A stretch of 64,000 nt of DNA from Medicago truncatula (taxonomy: Eukaryota > Streptophyta > Magnoliopsida > Fabales > Fabaceae), in NCBI RefSeq assembly GCF_003473485.1, contig NC_053042.1:54709762-54773761 (forward strand), in the 5' to 3' direction. Under the pieces are notes generated by a model. The model ran no database searches. It saw only the letters and a program-made list of their open reading frames with translations, and was not told the DNA's origin. A program made the position numbers and the translations under genes. Numbering within the stretch: the stretch's first letter is position 1; the number at the start of each line of letters is the position of its first letter. Positions 15,216-20,371 of the stretch are shown piece after piece.

Positions 15216-16036
15216 TCAAAAATACAAATTGAGCAATAATAATCCAGTTCCAAAAGGAACGAACTTCCCAATCACTCTCCATCTTTGAGAGATACAAGAA
15301 TTTTGTGATGGAGTTGGTTGAATTTGTGGATTTAATGCACCATCCATAAAATCAGTACCATTGTTGCTAACTTCTTTGACTTCAATCCCAAACCTCATTC
15401 CTCCAAGACAATGTCCAGCTATATTGCAAATGAACCAATATTTCTTCACCTTATTCAGAACCACTTCATCTTCTCCACTTTCATACTTAGCCAACACTCC
15501 ACTACTTGTTTCACATGATCTAAAAGTTTCCTCTCTCACTTCATACACATTATGTTGCCCCTTCACATACTTGAAAACTATACCAATACAACACCAAAAA
15601 TATAATTTAAAATAAATCATCTTTGAATTTAAATTTAAAACTAAATATTAAATTTTAATTATACTTTCAAAATTTAATAGAATAAATACAAATATATGGA
15701 CTTTATTTTTTAAAGATAATGTTATGAACTTATGATCACATACGAATATCTTTTATTGGCGAAAACAATATTTTTAAAATTAAAAAAAAAAAAATATCAA
15801 ATACAAGAATTTAGTAAAGATTGAATTGAGAATGAGAAGTACTACGTACCAAGAACATCTCCACGGCTAAAGTTGTATCTCTCTGCCCAAGTAGCATAAT
15901 TTGTTTGGCTACTCCATTCATCTTGATCACCAACAGCATAAACACTAGCCATGACACAGTTCAAGAGAAAACTACATAGCAAAATAAGAATTGAAAGTAT
16001 GAAGGTACAGTTGTTGAAGAAATTTGTGATCACCAT
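15216..16036 (-). CDS. Phytocyanin (uclacyanin/plantacyanin-type blue copper protein)
   Basis: Two exons on the minus strand, 16036-15850 and 15577-15216, give 182 aa. The chosen ATG opens a clear signal peptide (about residues 1-30, FILSILILLCSFLLNCVMA). An in-frame ATG at 16153 would add 39 residues before it and is less likely. The cupredoxin domain begins VYAVGDQDEW. Copper ligands are visible as H71, C113, H118 and M123 (CNIAGHCLGGM), with C84-C119 as the expected disulfide. The methionine ligand excludes the stellacyanin type. The C-terminus is hydrophobic (GTGLLLLNLYF), consistent with a GPI signal. The protein is expected to be apoplastic or membrane-anchored, in electron transfer or cell-wall redox; substrate unknown. 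Its upstream region is interrupted by the MULE at 16212, about 175 bp before the start. Confidence 0.9.
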
Positions 16037-16211
16037 TTCTTTGAAAAAGTAAGAAAGAAGATGTGATGAAACAGTGGCTGAAATAATGGTGGGTTGCCAC
16101 TTGCTACAGGTTTGCTTGTGTTTGAAGAAACAGCTCAAATATTGGAAGTCCACATCATCGAATAATTAATTTTGTCAATGTTCCAAGTTTGTGAAGTCAC
16201 GTTTTGGTTTA

Positions 16212-16480
16212 GGCTTAAATATGTAATTGATCCCTGCAAATAGGGGTCGTTTAAAAATTGGTCCTTGCAATCACTAATCCTTGCAAACAAACCCTGCAAT
16301 GGTTAATCACTTAAAAATTGGTCCCTGTACCCAGTTAAACTCATCCAGGTCATCTGTTTACTGACGTGGCAACGTCTAACAGGCTTTCACTTGACAGGTC
16401 AGCCATATGGGCATGGGAATGGACGAAAATGCCCCTCTTCAGATGAGGGCAACGTAAAATTACGTAACTACCCTTCGTTC
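16212..16480 (+). repeat. Left terminal inverted repeat of the MULE
   Basis: Begins GGCTTAAATATG and ends CTACCCTTCGTTC. It matches the right arm except for one C/T difference near 16286. It contains GGTCC(T/C)TGCA and TTAAAAATTG repeats that are also seen in the Pack-MULE at 32532. Confidence 0.93.
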
Positions 16481-16596
16481 CTTCATTCTCATGGTTGGTA
16501 CGAATTGCGATCTCTGGGTGGAGAAATTAGGGTTTGAAAAGGGGATTACGGTTTCAAAGCGCGGTTGAAGTGTAGAACCCATACAGATCGAAAGAA

Positions 16597-17255
16597 ATGA
16601 AGTTTCGTGACTCGTTTTCAATGGCGAATCCAAAGGAGGTGTCTTTTTCGAATTCGAAGAACGCAAAGGATGGAGAATCGTCAGGACATAATACAGGTAT
16701 GTTCATCTGAAACGATGAATTTTGTTTTTAGTTGTTGTTTTTTCGGTTTTGTTTAGTTGAATGTCATCGTTTTTAATTTAGGGTTTTATTTTTTCCATCA
16801 TTTCTAAATTAGGGTTTAATTATTTTCCAGATTTGGGTATTTCCGTGAAGTTCCATTATGGGGGGAGGTTTGTTAGGGATTGTGTTATTTGTTACAATGG
16901 GGGAGAAGAAACGTTGATTGAAGGTGTAGATCCTGATAAATGGTGTTTTTTTGAACTAACTGGAATTTTGGAAACTGATTTGCTAGTTAAAAAACCTTTT
17001 AGGTTGTGGTGGATGTTAGATGAAGATCTTAGTTTTAGATTGATTAAAGATGATGCCACTGCTGAAGTTGTAAAAGATTATGCACTTAACAAAAATAATG
17101 TTGTTAATGTTTTTGTTGAACATAATGTGGATGAAAGTATTGTTGTTGTTGATATCCCTAATTATGATGTTGTTGGTGAGGAATTGGGTGAGATTAATAA
17201 GGTAGTTAACAATGAGAAGGGTGAGAGTTCAGAGGCAGTAAATGTGATGTCTTAA
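16597..17255 (+). pseudogene. MULE transposase, N-terminal part (PB1-like region)
   Basis: Two exons (16597-16696, 16831-17255; intron GTATGT...TTCCAG) encode 174 aa ending at a TAA. After a short lead (MANPKEVSFSN) comes ISVKFHYGGRFVRDCVICYN and WCFFELTGILETDL, the N-terminal PB1-like region seen in plant MULE transposases. The frame then stops at 17253-17255 instead of continuing into the DDE core. A second ATG at 16621 is in frame and may be the true start. Since the next transposase block begins one base later, a large internal deletion removed the roughly 400-residue catalytic middle. Confidence 0.75.
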
Positions 17256-18858
17256 TGAACAACATTTCTGAAGCATTTAATTCAACAATATTAGTTGCTA
17301 GAGACAAACCAATACTTACCATGGCTGAATGGATTAGAACATATTTAATGAATAGAATGTCAACCAATAGGCTTAAGCTACAGAATTGGAACCATAAGAT
17401 AATGCCTATGCCTAGGAAAAGATTAAACACAGAAATTGTGAAGTCTGGTGGTTGGGTTGCCATATGGGGTGTTGCTGAAGAGTTTGAAGTTCATCAGGTA
17501 GGAGGAAGTCAGGCTTTTACTGTTAATTTGGCAAAAAAAACTTGTTCATGTAATTTTTGGGAGTTGGTGGGGATTCCTTGCAGACATGCCATTGCAGCTA
17601 TGTCTAAAACTTCAAAGGACCCAGAAGATTATGTCTCTGACTGGTATAGCAGGGAAATGTATGAAAAGTGTTATACACACAATGTAAGTGCTATCAATGG
17701 TCAAGACATGTGGCCAGAGGTTGAATGTGAGGAGTTGTTACCTCCTGCTTATAAAAAGGGTCCAGGAAGACCAAAAAAGGTTAGAAGGAGAGAAGCTGAT
17801 GAAGCACCATCCTCACAAGGTAAGTATAAAAGATATGGGACTACTTACAGGTGCACAAAATGTGATAAGTTTAGGCATAATGCTAAAGGATGCAAAAGTC
17901 TAACTGTCAACCCCAATGCTCAAAAAAGAAAGGTATTACATGTTATCATTTTTTAGATTTATTCTTCAAATTTTGTAATAAGCTAACATGTGTATTCTAT
18001 TATTGGTGAAAACAGAGAAAGCCACCAAGACAACCAAGTGAAGCTAGGACTAGTACAAGTGAAGCTAATGCTGGAGCAAGTGCAACTGATGTTAATGATG
18101 GAGCAAGTGCAAGTGCAAGTGCAAGTGCAAGTGAAGCTGTTTGTGGAGCAAGTACAATTCATGGTGGGGAGTCTACATCAAGTGCAAATGAGTCTGTGCA
18201 GGGTGCAAGTAAGAAAAGGAAGGTTGGGAGCAATACAACATTCATTCCTCCAAAACAGAGTAAGAAATCTAAAAAAAATCCCATGGCCTTTATGTCTTCA
18301 TCTGTAAAGCCAAGTGCTAATGTACAAACAACAGTTCACACCACCAAAAAATCACACACATTAATAGAGCCAACTGCAAATGTCACCACTACGGTTCACA
18401 CTTCAAGCACATCTGTGAGGCCAACTGCAACTGTCAACACTGTGGTGCACACATCAAAAAGTTCACACACAGTTGTTAAACCCACAGCAAATGTAACCAC
18501 TGTTATTAACCCAAAACCTACTGTCATCAAGAAACCTTCTGTTAAACCTGGTATGCACAGAAAACCACCAAGAAAACCTACTGTTCGCACCTTAGATGTT
18601 GTTAGGGCCATTGTGGAGCCAATAGTGAAAGTTAAAGCCCCTATTAGGAAGAGTAGGAGAATAGTCTGGAAAGGTCCTGCAATAAAAAATGGTCCAGGTA
18701 AAGATTTGGAAAACCCAATTGAGGTGGTTGATGAAGAGGTTGAAGAGGCAGGTGGATCAGAGAAACATGTTGCTGAAGCTACACCAAGGAAATTAACAGA
18801 TGCAGGTGGAAGCTGCTTGGCCTTGTTAAGAAGTGTTGAAAATGTGAAGTATATTTAG
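17255..18858 (+). pseudogene. MULE transposase, C-terminal part (SWIM, zinc knuckle, repeat tail)
   Basis: Exons 17255-17932 and 18016-18858 (intron GTATTA...AAACAG) give 506 aa open from an ATG created or exposed at the deletion. It starts with the segment normally following the DDE domain (ISEAFNSTILVARDKPILT). It then has a SWIM zinc finger (C97, C99, C109, H111), an AT-hook-like KKGPGRPKK (167-175) and a CCHC knuckle (C200, C203, H208, C213). The second exon holds an Ala-Ser repeat (18091-18130, GCAAGT hexamers) and about four tandem 17-22-residue repeats around PTANVTTTVHTS. No catalytic D-D-E region is present. If translated, it would be a DNA- or metal-binding protein without transposase activity. 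Confidence 0.8.
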
Positions 18859-19307
18859 TGTTAATTATGTAATGACATTTCCACTGACTTGTATTTTGTG
18901 TTTGGCAAAGTCCAACTTATGTAACTTGTTTAAGACTTGTATCTTGGTGTTTGGTTATGTCCCACTTATGTAATAGCAGTACTTGAATTGTCATAACTTT
19001 GTGATTTGCTTGGCTAAGTCCAAATTTTGTAAAACAAAGTATGAACATCTGTTATTATAAGTATTCAACTTTTGGCAAAGAATGAATTATTTTTAAGTAT
19101 TCAACAATTATAACTTGTGTTTCAAACTTTAATTGCAATCATCTTCCAAACATTGACACAACCTAACAACCCATGATTTCATTCAGAAACTTCACATTAC
19201 ATAATAGTTGTACCAACAAAATTACACAAACACAATACACAATTACACAACAATACATTACACCATAACACACCACAGCTAACATCAAACTTACAAAGTA
19301 CATAACA

Positions 19308-19968
19308 TTACTTCTTAACAAAGAATACAGCAAAGATCAACCAGCTAGCTATGATAATCCACTTAAGCAATTCAACCTTCTTCTTCTCAGCCAACACCTT
19401 CATTTTCCACTTGTCTTTCTTCTTCTCCCATAATTCACCACAGTTGCAATGTTGGTTTGTATACCTTCCAGACTTTGCAGACTCAGCTTCACGAATCACA
19501 GGTCCATTCACAGGTGCAGACTCATCTTCACGAATCAGATGTGCATTACCTTCTTCACGAACCAAAGGTGCAGAGTCTGCTTCCTTTGAGTTTGAAACAG
19601 CTGAATAGCACTGAGTCATTGGTCTGGTAGCTGGCCCAAGTTCATCATCCCAAATCCACTCATTGCAGGTTTTGTATTTTTTCTACATACCAAAGCAAGC
19701 ATTTTCCAATTTTATTCACTGTCACTGTATTGTATGAAAAACGGAAATTTCACAAAATAAAACTTACTTGCCAATCGCGACATCTCCAAAACCTCCTGCC
19801 TTGATTCTCCAAAGTCGTTGCTATGTAAAGAATCATCGGCTTCATAGGTAAACAACGGCACAGTGGAAGCATCCCTCGAGATGTGGGCAATGAGGGAGGA
19901 GGAAACTTTCCACCATTGCAGTAGGTTTCGTAGCTGTCTTTTGTTGAGGTATCGGTTGACATTTGCAA
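19308..19968 (-). CDS. GRF-type zinc-finger protein carried by the MULE
   Basis: Minus-strand exons 19968-19768 and 19682-19308 join in phase 0 (GTAAGT...GTATGTAG) to give 191 aa. Residues about 37-78 fit a GRF zinc finger: C37-x-C39, NQGRRFWRC (C63), then across the splice KKYKTCNEWIWDDE (C73, W76, W78). A Lys-rich coil (EKKKDKWKMKVLAEKKKVEL) and a C-terminal hydrophobic segment (WIIIASWLIFAVFFV) follow, so it may be tail-anchored. GRF fingers bind nucleic acid in other proteins; a role here is unknown. The gene lies within the MULE, convergent with the transposase remnant, ending about 450 bp from it. Splicing is inferred from sequence only. Confidence 0.75.
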
Positions 19969-20093
19969 TGTTAAGGAAACAATGACTGAAATGAAATGAA
20001 GAAGAAGAAGAAGAAGAAGAAAACGATCTGGAGATCCAGGAAGAAGAGGGTCGCAGTGAAAGAGAAGAGAAAAGGATGGTTTTTGAAGAAGAT

Positions 20094-20362
20094 GAACGAA
20101 GGGTAGTTACGTAATTTTACGTTGCCCTCATCTGAAGAGGGGCATTTTCGTCCATTCCCATGCCCATATGGCTGACCTGTCAAGTGAAAGCCTGTTAGAC
20201 GTTGCCACGTCAGTAAACAGATGACCTGGATGAGTTTAACTGGGTACAGGGACCAATTTTTAAGTGATTAACCATTGCAGGGTTTGTTTGCAAAGATTAG
20301 TGATTGCAAGGACCAATTTTTAAACGACCCCTATTTGCAGGGATCAATTACATATTTAAGCC
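20094..20362 (-). repeat. Right terminal inverted repeat of the MULE
   Basis: Inverted partner of 16212-16480 with one mismatch over 269 bp. The GRF gene's start lies about 125 bp inside it, so this arm probably supplies that gene's promoter, as the left arm does for the transposase. Confidence 0.93.
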
Positions 20363-20371
20363 TTTGGTTTA

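Follow-up and report, generated by a model that had tools for sequence, protein, structure and literature searches.

We analysed a 64,000-nucleotide stretch of the Medicago truncatula genome (C1:54709762-54773761; hereafter the window), which holds a 4,151-bp Mutator-like element (MULE; window positions 16212-20362) recognised by its terminal inverted repeats (TIRs), 9-bp target-site duplication (TSD) and open reading frames. Between the TIRs lie the remains of a transposase gene and a second gene, for a protein with a GRF-type zinc finger, which runs towards the first; the window element shares this convergent layout inside the TIRs with six relatives that have TIRs and TSDs of their own. Besides the small GRF protein, the family encodes a transposase of MuDR type that has MULE/DDE and SWIM domains; the two genes stand tail to tail. 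The window copy is called a deletion derivative because the MULE/DDE domain (PF10551) was absent from all three of its transposase pieces scanned, and we think it likely that it is a recently moved, non-autonomous member of this two-gene family that has lost internal sequence.

Structure of the window element and its closest copies

The two TIRs are identical at 268 of 269 bp, with the sole mismatch at position 69 (C/T), and TTTGGTTTA flanks the element on both sides as a perfect TSD (Table 1); sequence comparison thereby confirmed both features as given in a preliminary description of the locus. With the TIR as query, the genome (429.9 Mb, 42 contigs) yielded at least 45 matches (40 of 589 candidates scored). 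The nearest relative, L009 (C8:12749893-12755553; 5,661 bp), has its own TSD, AATATAAAA, and is 99.6 and 99.7% identical to the window element over two parts. Aligned over about 4.1 kb, the two copies differ by six substitutions; there are also three short gaps, of 1, 6 and 3 bp, and a single gap of 1,520 bp. The stretch missing from the window copy has TAAA at both edges, a 4-bp microhomology, and the MULE/DDE region maps to it (tblastn pieces; the same piece in L010 scored 43.8 bits against PF10551, cut-off 27.6). The preliminary description was thus right that the DDE core is missing and that the N-terminal frame ends at 17255, but not in placing the deletion at that same base: the junction lies about 14 bp upstream. 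Beyond the junction, the C-terminal transposase block retains a SWIM finger (Pfam score 40.8 bits), in a different frame from the N-terminal piece, and a match to the RYYR-CCHC knuckle that fell under its Pfam cut-off.

The core was probably deleted through interrupted or microhomology-based repair at TAAA. The loss may have preceded the move to this site, and another element would then have supplied the transposase, or it may have happened in place, after insertion. The short distance from L009 and the perfect TSD support a very young insertion, so the recent date given in the preliminary description holds, on other grounds than the TIR identity, which alone is no proof of age. Dating by TIR identity was rejected, as insertion does not reset the TIRs of a DNA transposon, and the distance from L009 was used instead.

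Two further copies, L010 (5,640 bp) and L011 (7,035 bp), share 94-97% identity with the window element across their long matches. The transposase frame is interrupted in L009, L010 and L011; the GRF frame is open in the first two, and in L011 an inserted stretch of some 1.4 kb interrupts the GRF gene (L011:5378-6737, C8). A 471-bp unit at C3:57278396-57278866, in which two family TIRs stand nearly head to head (89% identity), resembles a miniature inverted-repeat derivative.

Table 1. The Mutator-like element in the window: feature, window positions, strand and basis or remark
Left 9-bp TSD, TTTGGTTTA	16203..16211	.	
Left TIR, 269 bp	16212..16480	+	
Open frame with transposase N-terminal block; out of frame past the deletion	16782..17255	+	Aligned with undeleted L009
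Deletion junction TAAA; 1,520 bp of L009 absent, including DDE core	17239..17242	.	
Transposase C-terminal block, SWIM zinc finger (PF04434), CCHC-like knuckle	17243..17932	+	
Putative transposase intron, GTATTA...AACAG	17933..18015	+	Frame open across the join
Final transposase exon, low-complexity C-terminal tail	18016..18858	+	
Second GRF exon: cysteine 4 of the finger, then linker, lysine-rich stretch and hydrophobic C-terminal tail	19308..19682	-	
Putative GRF gene intron, GTAAGT...GTAG	19683..19767	-	Conserved between copies
GRF gene exon 1, 195 bp from ATG: N-terminus and first three finger cysteines	19768..19962	-	
Right TIR, 269 bp	20094..20362	-	
Right 9-bp TSD, TTTGGTTTA	20363..20371	.	

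The element sits upstream of a plastocyanin-like gene (PF02298, 54.4 bits in the frame at 15216-15647). This minus-strand phytocyanin-like gene spans 15216-16036, with a probable start codon at 16036, 175 bp from the left end of the element. Sites just upstream of genes are often used by MULEs, and the insertion may affect the promoter of this gene.

Pairing of transposase and GRF genes

GRF exon 2, used as a query against the genome, found 20 matches, and 10 kb was fetched around each of 11 of the more distant ones. Six of these (L029-L033 and L035) are elements of 5,952-6,119 bp with TIRs of 285-312 bp (95-99% identity) and 9-bp TSDs. They match every transposase piece tested (N-terminal 47-61%, D2 66-70%, C-terminal 71-76% identity) and carry the GRF gene, convergent and at the corresponding position (exon 1 50-61%, exon 2 32-35%). 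The preliminary description had let its two-gene reading hang on other copies combining DDE and GRF, and these six elements, each roughly 6 kb long, do combine them, with frames often broken. In all, both genes are present in L009, L010, L020 and L029-L035, again often with broken frames; at L034 no long TIR pair was found within 10 kb. Among the remaining loci, L037 has GRF only and L038 has GRF with an N-terminal transposase relic; L039 gave no match to the tested GRF or transposase pieces. L014, which is not on the GRF match lists, holds GRF exon 1.

To survey pairing across the genome, we listed transposases found with a 238-aa transposase piece (best 150 of 311 candidates scored) and GRF genes found with the PF06839 profile (best 150 of 258 candidates scored; 143 of the 150 over the cut-off) or with GRF exon 2, and counted pairs within 8 kb. 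At least 47 of the 150 transposase matches were paired, with 46 different GRF matches, and 46 of the 47 pairs were convergent; random relocation produced 1.0 on average and no more than 4 in 200. Using the PF06839 list alone, which was chosen without regard to likeness to the window gene, at least 37 of 150 were paired, 36 of them convergently. Addition of a second transposase query, from L043 (141 of 321 candidates scored), brought the merged set to 156 transposase loci, at least 48 of which had a listed GRF gene (47 convergent; random mean 0.97, maximum 6 in 500). GRF homologues are thus not confined to host genes, an outcome in line with the preliminary description. The distance within pairs had a median of 2,417 bp and fell at 1.9-3.1 kb in 38 of 47.

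Relocation was uniform along each chromosome and did not reproduce the clustering of transposons, so that the control set matters. Of 150 PF10551 matches (from 923 candidates), none common to the test set, two were paired, one convergently and one divergently. Because this control gives only 2 of 150, the GRF association is concentrated in MULEs related to the window transposase. By identity to the 238-aa query, the paired fraction of the first 150 transposase matches was 5/6 at 80-100%, 8/22 at 60-80%, 1/30 at 50-60%, 2/14 at 42-50%, 30/66 at 35-42% and 1/12 below 35%, the last being the doubtful pair discussed below. The convergent layout recurs beside transposases as distant as about 35-41%. 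From its layout, the GRF partner looks like an old, long-kept second gene, positioned like maize mudrB, and not like an accident.

The longer relatives and the pairing statistics led us to reject both capture of a host gene and a one-off chance insertion. Repeated capture in the manner of Pack-MULEs, with a host GRF gene carried as a passenger that has no role for the element, seems to us very improbable. MULEs do capture host sequence (PMC9168764), and donors would be plentiful, given the number of PF06839 matches over the cut-off. Moreover, for 113 of the 161 merged GRF loci the lists show no transposase within 8 kb; many of these may be short derivatives or host genes. One such locus, L052 (C7:39361300-39363300), has zinc-knuckle and GRF pieces and, by eye, no transposase-like frame in 2 kb; it is probably a host gene. 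A GRF gene specific to nodulation, N20, is also known from M. truncatula (PMC4517396). A GRF gene outside MULEs nevertheless leaves the convergent layout of the pairs unexplained. The capture reading is partly refuted because repeated independent capture predicts no fixed orientation or distance, and 47 of the 48 listed pairs are convergent. The finger and C-terminal tail common to the subfamilies argue against it too, as do the dN/dS below 1 of the GRF gene and its open frame in copies with a dead transposase (see below). Whereas a Pack-MULE carries captured cargo with no kept place by a transposase, here the GRF gene recurs convergently beside related transposases.

The GRF protein, its conservation and its possible roles

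The window GRF gene has two exons whose joined frame of 189 aa is free of stops; we infer its splicing from the open frames, consensus sites and conservation. The open frame and convergent orientation given in the preliminary description were borne out, and so was the hydrophobic C-terminus, by Kyte-Doolittle analysis. The ligand pattern CxC...GRRF..C...C is present in the window protein (as CRC, RRFWRC and TC) and in its relatives (alignment; the L014 and L041 rows are partial). The proteins follow a common plan: the N-terminal finger (CxC...GRRF.xC...C), a variable linker, a lysine-rich stretch and a C-terminal hydrophobic segment with 0-8 residues after it; in the nearer subfamilies IWDDEL follows the finger. 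The best 19-residue Kyte-Doolittle means were 2.09 for the window protein, 1.98 for L029, 1.60 for L036 (C-terminal piece), 2.19 for L043, 2.60 for L047 and 2.81 for L049, giving a hydrophobic tail in all six partner proteins scored. Five of the six, all except L043, share the tail motif SW[ILV]xF, and the GRF protein of L051 has a hydrophobic C-terminal stretch by eye. The GRF partner therefore looks, by its predicted sequence, like a tail-anchored membrane protein. The best match in PDB sequences to the GRF protein of L043 was the GRF domain of NEIL3 (7omk, E 1.4e-4), which binds single-stranded as well as forked DNA (PMC9266487).

We compared copies by the ratio of non-synonymous to synonymous substitution rates (dN/dS), skipping stop codons; several rows are degraded copies, which are expected to raise the ratios. 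In the GRF gene dN/dS is below 1, with significance not in every pair. L009 against L014, L015, L017 and L020 gave 0.19, 0.37, 0.14 and 0.46 (Fisher p = 0.001, 0.006, 5e-8 and 0.014), and L029 against L030, L031 and L032 gave 0.14, 0.12 and 0.27 (p = 0.009, 0.003 and 0.016). For the D2 piece of the transposase, L009 against L014, L015 and L020 gave 0.27, 0.16 and 0.27 (p below 1e-5), and L014 against L015 and L020 gave 0.70 and 0.57, not significant. None of the ten copies read (window, L009, L010, L011, L029-L033 and L035) appears open in both genes. The GRF gene is open but the transposase deleted or interrupted in the window copy, L009, L010 and L029; the transposase of L031 looks open, with a stop in GRF exon 1; and both genes appear broken in L011, L030, L032, L033 and L035.

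Several findings weigh against the two-gene reading. On the side of pairing, 108 of the 156 transposase loci have no listed GRF gene. We read ten of these unlisted loci (L041, L042 and L044-L051; hand-picked, non-random) and found GRF in six, always convergent, so that the unpaired loci are partly detection failures; the other four had no GRF within 3.6 kb. The profile used here contained the L041 finger, and L041 and its near-copy L042, both spotted earlier by eye, are not independent. The first pairing had hinted that transposases in the 50-65% band lack GRF; the same six loci led us to reject this. At least one listed pair is doubtful, since the GRF gene by the 28%-identity transposase at C2:43122187 belongs to a separate 1.8-kb inverted-repeat unit, L040, and at L043, whose transposase scores 36.6 bits against PF10551, no TIRs were found within the 6.5 kb fetched. 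On the side of the protein, the window sequence scores 20.0 bits against PF06839, under the cut-off of 25.9; its assignment rests on homology because relatives pass the profile (L029 32.3, L043 30.9 and L036 27.9 bits). The transposase core and C-terminal block (66-76%) are better conserved than either GRF exon, although exon 1 does not fall below the transposase N-terminus. On the side of selection, L009 against L010 gave a GRF dN/dS of 0.32 that is not significant (p = 0.09), as are the values of 0.31-0.49 among L030-L032 (L030-L031 p = 0.49, L030-L032 p = 0.08, L031-L032 p = 0.07). Finally, the GRF frames of L030-L033 and L035 are broken while their TIRs are still 95-99% alike, and the GRF gene is therefore not needed in cis. 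Recent movement may have depended on proteins provided in trans; alternatively, an intact copy has gone unseen, or the breaks postdate insertion.

Part of the pattern could reflect position. Internal deletions keep the ends of an element, and if GRF spread mainly through adjacency to the right TIR, the open GRF frames in short copies would be hitch-hikers, a reading that we consider doubtful. L040 fits it (L040:4305-6091, C2), a 1.8-kb unit with 162-bp inverted repeats (85%) that holds a transposase N-terminus and a GRF exon with the core absent. So does L036 (L036:1802-4876, C1), a 3,075-bp palindrome with 723-bp arms (99.3% identical) and GRF pieces at both ends, in which the transposase pieces tested found no match. 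Hitch-hiking covers the short copies, but not the recurrence of GRF beside divergent transposases. Many PF06839 matches with open frames of 67-72 aa may be copies of short L040-like units.

For the function of the GRF protein, we tentatively favour, as possible more than probable, a helper of insertion or of excision-gap repair like mudrB, acting in trans and held at a membrane, because the place of the partner gene corresponds to that of mudrB, which is needed for MuDR insertion. In maize, excision requires MURA alone and insertion requires mudrA and mudrB, with the function of MURB given as unknown (PMC2563033). The GRF finger would contact single-stranded or forked DNA at the transposon ends or in the excision gap, and the C-terminal tail would tether the protein to the endoplasmic reticulum (ER) or nuclear envelope.

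The main rival casts the GRF protein as a regulator that counters silencing or faces the host, comparable to VANC in VANDAL elements, and not as a helper in the DNA reaction; we hold this to be rather unlikely. Long MULE TIRs are associated with small interfering RNAs (PMC6446971), which would make an anti-silencing factor useful; the lower conservation of GRF than of the transposase core fits an arms race, and open GRF genes persist in core-deleted copies. Against a regulator stand the relation of the finger to a domain that binds single-stranded DNA and the membrane tail, which would be unexpected in a chromatin factor.

The role of the second gene in two-gene MULEs has been open since mudrB, and a recognisable GRF domain with a membrane-like tail makes the question testable, as DNA binding, cell location and insertion frequency can all be assayed directly. 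At least 48 of the 161 merged GRF loci have a related MULE transposase no more than 8 kb away, so a plant 'GRF zinc finger' gene that turns up in a family count or as an association-study candidate may belong to a transposon. If GRF is a regular MULE gene, many of the counted members of this family in plants would be transposon genes. GRF-type fingers appear, next to transposon domains, among the enriched domains given in one genome paper (PMC10359422).

Comparison with known systems

Our search of the literature on GRF fingers with Mutator, MULE or transposon did not turn up a MULE described as carrying a GRF gene, within a coverage that lacked most subscription journals and Repbase; the available text of an arthropod MULE survey has no GRF (PMC13359780). 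The preliminary description had called two-gene MULEs with a non-transposase partner little described, which stands for GRF and fails for antisense second genes as such, known from maize mudrB, plant mobile domain (PMD) genes and the Abermu ORFR.

NEIL3 and APE2 share the GRF-type zinc ribbon with the partner protein. They are cellular repair proteins, and we know of no C-terminal membrane segment in either and of no transposon that carries them. Beside mudrB and PMD, OTU/ULP and VANC are other accessory classes of MULEs. We put at a little short of an even chance the proposal that a large plant MULE clade with a tail-anchored GRF protein as its regular second gene forms a new class, one that would tie a transposition intermediate or its repair to the nuclear or ER membrane.

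Within M. truncatula, MuTAnT is likewise a MULE with a 9-bp TSD, but its putative autonomous copy has a single Jittery-like transposase frame, and GRF is absent from the available text (PMC4486113). MUDRAVI2, MUDR and MDR resemble the present family in an often antisense second gene, TIRs of tens to hundreds of bp, a 9-bp TSD and a SWIM-type transposase (PMC6446971, Table 1); their second gene is PMD, and the survey, which in its accessible part gives plant antisense second genes as PMD or unknown, does not contain GRF there (PMC6446971). Abermu type II elements of grasses have an antisense ORFR between the transposase frame and the 3' TIR, less conserved than the transposase (PMC9168764). ORFR is of unclear function and without similarity to MURB, and the portion of the paper at hand has no GRF (PMC9168764).

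A parallel in layout is maize MuDR, with its long TIRs, 9-bp TSD and convergent order of mudrA and mudrB. Like the present family it has two genes, the second of them a helper needed for insertion (PMC2563033). The available text describes MURB without mention of a GRF finger (PMC2563033).

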